Positions 57,551 through 60,079 of a DNA stretch of 64,000 nt are shown here, one piece after another. Source of the stretch: Phycisphaeraceae bacterium (lineage in GTDB: Bacteria > Planctomycetota > Phycisphaerae > Phycisphaerales > Zrk34); the NCBI GenBank assembly GCA_028282805.1, contig JANQHD010000047.1, forward strand, positions 1 through 64,000, in the 5' to 3' direction. Position numbers and translations under genes: made by a program. Below the pieces are notes generated by a model, which saw nothing but the letters and a program-made list of their open reading frames with translations, was not told the origin of the DNA and ran no database searches. Numbering within the stretch: the stretch's first letter is position 1; the number at the start of each line of letters is the position of its first letter.

Positions 57551-59161
<1,611 letters not shown>

Positions 59162-59224: not shown

Positions 59225-59250
59225 AAAAAACCCCGCCTCGCGGCAGGGTG
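59225..59250 (-). terminator. Attenuator terminator in the cimA leader
   Basis: On the minus strand: CCCTGCC, GCGA tetraloop, GGCGGGG, then TTTTTT (seven pairs, one G-U). It is in front of cimA, not behind a gene, which marks it as an attenuator. Its left arm (59,241-59,250) can instead pair with CGGCGGTG upstream (59,270-59,277), leaving a CT bulge, to form an antiterminator. Confidence 0.8.
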
Positions 59251-59267
59251 GTCAGTGTCTTCTTGCG

Positions 59268-59322
59268 ATCACCGCCGATCCTACCGCCCGTGCGAAGGAA
59301 TCATGATAATCTCGGCGATGAT
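59268..59322 (-). promoter_or_regulatory. Competing leader hairpin 1:2 of the cimA attenuator
   Basis: Segment 1 ATCATCGCCGA (minus strand, 59,312-59,322) covers the first two Ile codons of the leader peptide. It pairs over 11 bp (one G-U) with segment 2 TCGGCGGTGAT (59,268-59,278). A ribosome stalled on the Ile codons would block this hairpin and free segment 2 for antitermination. Confidence 0.7.
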
Positions 59323-59337
59323 GCTGCTGTGGCTCAT
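59281..59337 (-). CDS. Isoleucine-rich leader peptide of cimA
   Basis: 18 codons from ATG at 59,337 to TAG at 59,281-59,283: MSHSSIIAEIIMIPSHGR. Five of 18 residues are Ile, all within IIAEIIMI. No SD is visible, and the ATG is only a few bases after the expected transcription start, so translation is probably leaderless. The codons overlap hairpin segment 1. Its likely job is to sense Ile-tRNA charging by ribosome stalling, as in ilv and leu leaders of other bacteria. Confidence 0.75.
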   Translation of the reverse strand: MSHSSIIAEIIMIPSHGR

Positions 59338-59347
59338 AACGTGAAAA

Positions 59348-59375
59348 ATTGTACCTCATGCGTGGGTGAAAGCAA
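59348..59375 (-). promoter_or_regulatory. cimA promoter
   Basis: On the minus strand TTGCTT (59,375-59,370), 16 bp, TACAAT (59,353-59,348). The start site would be near 59,341, about four bases before the leader peptide ATG. Confidence 0.65.
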
Positions 59376-59397
59376 ATCTTTACCACGCCAATACGTG

Positions 59398-59403
59398 TAT
59401 CAT
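59398..59403 (+). promoter_or_regulatory. -10-like box of the MBL hydrolase gene
   Basis: TATCAT ends 7 bp before the ATG at 59,411; no clear -35 was found. If used, the mRNA would begin at or next to the start codon (leaderless). Confidence 0.35.
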
Positions 59404-59410
59404 CGGCCTC

Positions 59411-60079
59411 ATGAGCGGTAAAGTCCACATCGAATCGTTCGCCTTGGGCGTCTGGCAAACCAACTGTTACCTGGTCTGGGTCGAGGGTTCGAGCGATTGC
59501 TGGATCGTCGACGCCGGCTACGAACCGCGGCCGATGATCGACGCGATCCAGCGCCATGACCTTGAGCCCGTCGCGGTCGTGCTGACCCACGCCCACCTCG
59601 ACCACATCGGCGGCTTGGCGGAGGTGCGCGCGGTCTGGCCCGAGGCGCCGATCCTCATCCACCCGGCGGAAAAAGATTACCTGTCCGATCCGATGAACAA
59701 CCTGTCGGTGATGTGGCCGCCGCCGATCACCGGGCCGCAGGCGACGGGCACGATCGATGTCGACCAACCGATGGCGTTGGCCGGCGAAACGTTCGAACTC
59801 CGCCACACGCCCGGCCACAGCCCCGGCGGCGTCACGCTCATCCACCACGGCTCGAAGCAAGCGCTGGTCGGCGACACGCTGTTCGCCTCGGGCATCGGGC
59901 GGTTCGACTTCCCCCACAGCGACGGGCTGGCGCTGATCCGCTCGATCCGCAACGAGTTGATGACGCTCGACGACGGCGTGCGCGTCTACCCCGGCCACGG
60001 GCCGAGCACGACCGTCGGCGCCGAGCGCAAAACGAACCCGTTCCTGCAGGTGTCCGAAGAAGAGCTGGGCATGATGTGA
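59411..60079 (+). CDS. MBL-fold metallo-hydrolase (glyoxalase II-like)
   Basis: 222 aa from ATG 59411. HxHxDH motif THAHLDHIGG, later His in HTPGHSPGG, Asp in LVGDTLFASGIGR and His in VYPGHGPST: the complete two-metal set of YcbL/glyoxalase II-type hydrolases. It lacks the C-terminal glutathione-binding domain of true GloB, so a general thioesterase role is likely. Divergent from cimA with a 73-bp gap. Confidence 0.9.
   Translation: MSGKVHIESFALGVWQTNCYLVWVEGSSDCWIVDAGYEPRPMIDAIQRHDLEPVAVVLTHAHLDHIGGLAEVRAVWPEAPILIHPAEKDYLSDPMNNLSVMWPPPITGPQATGTIDVDQPMALAGETFELRHTPGHSPGGVTLIHHGSKQALVGDTLFASGIGRFDFPHSDGLALIRSIRNELMTLDDGVRVYPGHGPSTTVGAERKTNPFLQVSEEELGMM

Follow-up and report, generated by a model that had tools for sequence, protein, structure and literature searches.

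Control of amino-acid genes by attenuation has been well characterized in proteobacteria and actinobacteria. The E. coli trp, his and ilv attenuators follow a logic of alternative 1:2, 2:3 and 3:4 pairings and possess a conventional 5′-untranslated region (UTR) with a ribosome binding site; in T-box leaders, uncharged tRNA binds the RNA directly and no leader peptide is involved. The 1:2/2:3/3:4 logic has been set out for his attenuation, and Gram-positive T-box leaders place amino-acid genes and tRNA synthetases under the control of tRNA charging (PMC3896937). As summarized in a later paper, the ilvBNC attenuator of C. glutamicum encodes the leader peptide MTIIRLVVVTARRLP, whose start codon lies one nucleotide from the transcription start, has no ribosome binding site and uses a terminator/antiterminator (PMC11857589, citing Morbach et al. 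2000). In S. meliloti, trpL is a ribosome-dependent attenuator with an RNA that starts at the leader ATG (PMC7298713), and the leaderless polycysteine ORFs of mycobacteria are presented, in the title of the original work, as amino-acid-responsive attenuators (Canestrari et al. 2020, cited in PMC13236596).

Our analysis of a planctomycete window, i.e., the whole stretch of 64,000 nt of DNA that was analyzed, indicates that the region upstream of the cimA gene very probably constitutes a ribosome-mediated transcription attenuator through which the level of charged tRNA-Ile controls cimA. A first-pass annotation of this DNA had listed on the minus strand two promoter hexamers, an ORF of 18 codons with five Ile and a terminator with a T run, all of which were found. 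The features of the region are as follows:

59370..59375, minus strand: −35-like hexamer TTGCTT, read directly; weak
59348..59353, minus strand: −10 hexamer TACAAT, read directly, 10 nt 5′ of the leader ATG
59281..59337, minus strand: leader ORF MSHSSIIAEIIMIPSHGR, from the ATG at 59337 to the UAG (TAG) at 59281; 18 codons, 5 Ile
59312..59322, minus strand: segment 1 AUCAUCGCCGA, which covers the first two Ile codons; pairs with 59268-59278
59280..59287, minus strand: segment 2a GCGGUAGG, spanning the UAG stop; antiterminator strand, with the partner CCUGCCGC at 59240-59247
59268..59278, minus strand: segment 2b UCGGCGGUGAU, pairing partner of segment 1
59242..59249, minus strand: segment 3 ACCCUGCC, 5′ strand of the terminator stem; the antiterminator partner occupies 59240-59247
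59225..59237, minus strand: segment 4 GGCGGGGU with the U run, 3′ part of the intrinsic terminator; loop GCGA at 59238-59241
59249-59230, minus strand: terminator ACCCUGCC-GCGA-GGCGGGGU, with the T run at 59230-59225
57551..59161, minus strand: cimA, (R)-citramalate synthase, the putatively controlled gene (TIGR00977, 656 bits versus a cut-off of 450)

The two hexamers are separated by 16 nt, and the intrinsic terminator, placed between the leader ORF and cimA, begins 31 nt after the ORF end. The window promoter scored below the sigma-70 consensus in a scan and is weak taken alone, and no Shine-Dalgarno sequence precedes the leader ATG in the window. A divergent plus-strand ORF (59366-60079, start at 59366 or 59411) faces the leader promoter, which is thus confined to a short spacer. 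Folding of the 119-nt leader, a check that the annotation had proposed, yielded −44.2 kcal/mol versus −35.5 kcal/mol for shuffled sequences (z of −2.7).

The annotation had further proposed that related cimA genes be inspected for an Ile-rich ORF and a terminator, and both turned out to be widely kept. Among 201 genomes of the order, cimA was called at an E value below 1e-60 in 56, including 9 of 9 genomes of the window's own family, and in 45 of these 56 an Ile-rich short ORF followed by a terminator was located upstream of cimA (9/9 in the own family and 36/46 in a second family). For the other 11 cimA genes of the order, the leader was absent in 10 and reduced to a decayed remnant in one (L038); one of the 45 leaders counted (L052) has just two Ile. 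The leader peptides are 15 to 25 amino acids long, and their sequences diverge strongly outside the Ile runs (e.g., MNSRIASIIIISNHTKR, MRKTTTIIAGVIIISGQLR, MQPNGTIIIAIISNPPLR among the relatives). In the terminator 3:4 stem, 98% of the cells are paired across 33 leaders, with 9 both-side changes. A covariance model built from these 33 leaders and used to search further genomes revealed the same element ahead of cimA in additional families of the class; there, the stop codon sits in the context GGGUAGGG and the terminators start with CCCUGCCC. Planctomycetes of other classes (Gimesia, Pirellulaceae, Gemmata, and others) likewise carry an Ile-rich ORF and a terminator ahead of cimA. Weak matches of the model outside the class (E value above 1e-4) were mostly bare terminators and were discarded.

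The isoleucine content of the leaders is bound to one reading frame: over 45 leaders, Ile accounts for 27.3% of codons in frame, whereas the two remaining frames have 1.5% and 0.7%. Leader Ile codons comprise 75 AUU and 42 AUC, i.e., AUU makes up 75 of 119 Ile codons, versus 53 AUU and 523 AUC (53 of 592) in the cimA genes of the same genomes (Fisher P value of 1e-35 for AUU/AUC usage). AUU is favored over AUC in the leader ORFs of 24 genomes, although cimA avoids it. Because AUU and AUC are normally read by one tRNA, the leader preference for AUU may serve to adjust stalling or to prevent undesired pairing.

We looked for a −10 hexamer with at least 4 of 6 matches, including A2 and T6, that ends 6 to 10 nt 5′ of the start codon. 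Such a hexamer was present in 38 of the 45 leaders versus 11% of random upstream positions; two leaders use a GUG start at the same distance from the −10 hexamer, and the remaining 7 have an apparently longer UTR or another in-frame start. Provided that transcription starts 6 to 8 nt past the −10 hexamer, this arrangement predicts a 5′ UTR of 0 to 4 nt across the leaders and, because of the 10-nt gap between the −10 hexamer and the ATG, of about 2 to 4 nt in the window. Given the spacing that recurs in these 38 leaders, the leader peptide of cimA is probably leaderless. The annotation had put the ATG about 4 bases from the start site, with no Shine-Dalgarno sequence; the predicted leaderless placement recurs in relatives, and the distance is corrected to the predicted 2 to 4 nt. 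It had also regarded the cimA target and the leaderless peptide as unusual, yet neither the target nor the probably leaderless placement is peculiar to this genome.

The leader stop codon is UAG in 41 of the 45 leaders and usually lies within CGGUAGGG, which is complementary to the terminator 5′ arm CCCUGCCG. In the window, the conserved 2:3 helix joins GCGGUAGG (59287-59280, across the UAG) to CCUGCCGC (59247-59240), and not segment 2 to CACC-CT-GCCG, as had been annotated. A 2:3 pairing of GGUG with CACC was set aside for the stop-codon helix, although the window's best antiterminator fold does contain a nearby inner helix. The annotated 1:2 pairing was borne out, as 59322-59312 is complementary to 59278-59268. 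When pairing energies of each leader's own segments were compared with those of segments swapped between leaders, the own pairing was stronger for 1:2 (P value of 1.5e-5) and for 2:3 (P value of 0.0025) and was not stronger in the 1:3 control (P value of 0.27); for 1:2, this holds for the leaders as a set, not in each leader. Column covariation of the 2:3 helix was not significant in the closest 33 leaders, where it is uninformative because the CGGUAGGG/CCCUGCCG core is nearly invariant in this close set; the support for the helix comes from the partner-swap tests and from divergent leaders. In L023, the stop region and the terminator arm are complementary with other letters (GGGGCUGG/CCAGCCCC); L054 carries the complementary pair GGCCGGCG/CGCCGGCC, and L016 and L020 carry GUAGGGC/GCCCUAC. 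In L045 and L030, CGGCAGGG is shifted and follows UAA or UGA. Complementary pairs were also read by eye in other planctomycete classes, e.g., GACUUGAGG/CCUCAGGUC and CUUCGGGGU/ACCCCGAAG.

To model the switch, we placed the leading edge of the ribosome 15 nt past the middle Ile codon; the resulting probabilities are equilibrium values, whereas the real decision is kinetic. The median terminator probability of the 45 leaders was 0.02 with the ribosome stalled at the middle Ile codon, 0.97 with the ribosome at the stop codon and 0.90 without a ribosome. Shuffling the exposed spacer returned the stalled value to 0.94 (P value of 3e-12). In the computation, the terminator was lost at the stall codon in 32 of 45 leaders and formed at the stop codon in 44 of 45; in the other 13, the terminator probability at the selected stall codon stayed above 0.5. 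For the window leader, the terminator probability was 0.00 to 0.04 with Ile codon 10 in the A site (leading edges of +12 to +16), and for Ile codon 11 it was 0.01 to 0.09 up to +14 and about 0.8 beyond. It was high (about 0.77) for Ile codons 6 and 7, mixed for Ile codon 13, and 0.98 with the ribosome at the stop codon. The computed folds, the pairing tests and the divergent variants all show the antiterminator helix and the terminator as mutually exclusive.

The attenuator reading is based on the parts of the leader, their conservation, their pairings and the computed switch; from these we infer the transcription start, translation, stalling and isoleucine response of the cimA leader. Transcription would start about 2 to 4 nt 5′ of the leader ATG, and the ribosome would initiate at the 5′ end of the RNA without a Shine-Dalgarno sequence. 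With ample Ile-tRNA, it would reach the UAG within the antiterminator strand and cover that strand, so that segment 3 would pair with segment 4, the terminator would form and cimA would remain untranscribed. When Ile-tRNA is scarce, the ribosome would stall at the Ile codons, in the window leader mainly at codons 10 and 11, leaving segment 2 free to pair with segment 3 and allowing the polymerase to continue into cimA. Without translation, 1:2 and 3:4 would tend to form, making termination the default. The first-pass reading of the locus as an isoleucine attenuator for cimA is, with the corrections given above, supported by the conservation, the pairing tests and the modelled switch.

Similar leaders precede other amino-acid genes. 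We scanned 2.27 Mb (58%) of the window's own genome for a −10 hexamer, an ORF and a terminator, ignoring amino acids, and obtained 9 candidates, with the ileS and cimA leaders on top, followed by an aromatic-rich ORF MLTRFFYFVWRFIGGPRPVPVRVRSRR with a terminator (L212:10280, G000:C4) ahead of the gene for DAHP synthase, which catalyzes the first step of aromatic amino-acid synthesis. A reversed-sequence control gave 0 matches; as it also destroys real terminators, it bounds chance only loosely. The ileS leader of this genome, MHKTTDSIAIIITSPKNR, shows the same design (L103:1501-1629, equivalent to G000:C31:144014-144142) and scored 80.6 bits with the covariance model, which also matched ileS leaders in other genomes. 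Among 30 ileS loci read in the order, those with an Ile-rich ORF come from a handful of genomes in the two cimA families (the own genome, G001, G025 and G029) and from one further family (f5), there without a clear terminator in the scan; most of the other loci have no Ile-rich ORF. The model matched thrS leaders of another family that encode, for instance, the peptide MHRPTTTTTTTTATRHRG, and the thrS gene of the own genome is preceded by a poly-Thr leader MNTLTTTTTATTTTLTRGAGGL and a terminator (L247:7133; G000:C32, about 47133), with a less clear promoter spacing and a weak equilibrium switch. Similar leaders were seen before thrS at L089, L091, L093, L100, L114, L118, L119 and L120. In other families of the phylum, Leu-rich leader ORFs with terminators (MNHASAISINLLLGLLPLRRS in L098 and MKMISIAALLLLAPDRGVS in L099) lie ahead of 2-isopropylmalate synthase. 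At L101:1516, an Ile-rich ORF MKKNISLTIIGIIIMPGGSGM with a terminator precedes a gene weakly similar to the B12-dependent radical SAM family.

These parallel leaders bear on the alternatives to attenuation in cis. The terminated leader RNA or the peptide could act in trans, and the conservation could reflect that role, alongside attenuation in cis or in its place, as has been proposed for rnTrpL and peTrpL of S. meliloti, where trpL is likewise leaderless and yields a trans-acting RNA and peptide (PMC7298713). We judge such action very unlikely here, since the peptides differ in length and outside the Ile runs, what persists being their richness in Ile, the pairing of the stop-codon region and the terminator, and since the regulatory amino acid follows the downstream gene, as cis sensing predicts. 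The probability that a small ORF, a promoter-like match and a terminator unrelated to them came together by coincidence is practically negligible. Despite the weak promoter, and although a lone short ORF with five Ile is nothing rare, chance is already refuted by conservation, with the layout recurring in 45 of 56 genomes, and the three best candidates of the genome scan all precede matching amino-acid genes.

A terminator/antiterminator under another ligand (a T-box, a riboswitch or an RNA-binding protein), with an incidental ORF, would agree with the alternative folds that occur without a ribosome; in 40 of 45 leaders, segment 3 of the untranslated RNA is likewise engaged upstream by the time that segment 4 emerges. 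However, the in-frame Ile bias and the codon choice need translation, and codon identity tracks the gene, with Ile codons at cimA and ileS and Thr codons at thrS. In Rfam, moreover, we obtained sub-threshold matches only, with no family near its gathering score, including the T-box models and the amino-acid leader families. Control by another ligand is therefore highly improbable, and translation-dependent sensing of Ile-tRNA in cis is the reading that we retain.

An attenuator of the classical E. coli type seems to be standard in planctomycetes. We lean toward the broader view that planctomycetes have their own regulatory RNA system of leaderless attenuators with a stop-codon antiterminator, in which a mere exchange of the sensor codons would adapt the design to cimA, ileS, thrS and DAHP synthase, with AUU chosen for sensing, and which would do the job that T-boxes do in Gram-positive bacteria. 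The conserved cimA attenuator shows how planctomycetes would control isoleucine made via citramalate, and leader-peptide control would extend to ileS and thrS. Dozens of probably leaderless leader peptides offer a natural set in which to study translation from leaderless starts, the occupancy of the stop codon and the choice of codons. Neither the leaders nor their small ORFs are likely to have been annotated, and the set is large enough for a new RNA-family model. Full-text searches, which covered few subscription journals, gave no account of amino-acid attenuation in planctomycetes; some leaders may have been predicted earlier.

Leaderless leader peptides as such are already known; the present leaders differ from them in phylum and targets, in sensing by Ile codons only and in placing the leader stop codon at the core of the antiterminator. 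The cimA leader shares the 1:2/2:3/3:4 logic with the trp, his and ilv attenuators of E. coli but is predicted to lack their conventional 5′ UTR and ribosome binding site. In Gram-positive bacteria, T-box leaders also precede ileS and thrS; the leaders described here have a leader peptide instead, and no T-box was found. The mycobacterial polycysteine ORFs are likewise short and leaderless but concern cysteine and mycobacteria, and S. meliloti trpL differs in its tryptophan codons, its trpE(G) target, its phylum and its sequence. C. glutamicum ilvBNC resembles the cimA leader in branched-chain control, in the leaderless placement (predicted here) and in the terminator/antiterminator switch; however, it belongs to an actinobacterium and uses mixed Ile, Val and Leu codons, whereas the cimA leader relies on Ile codons only and carries its stop codon inside the antiterminator strand.
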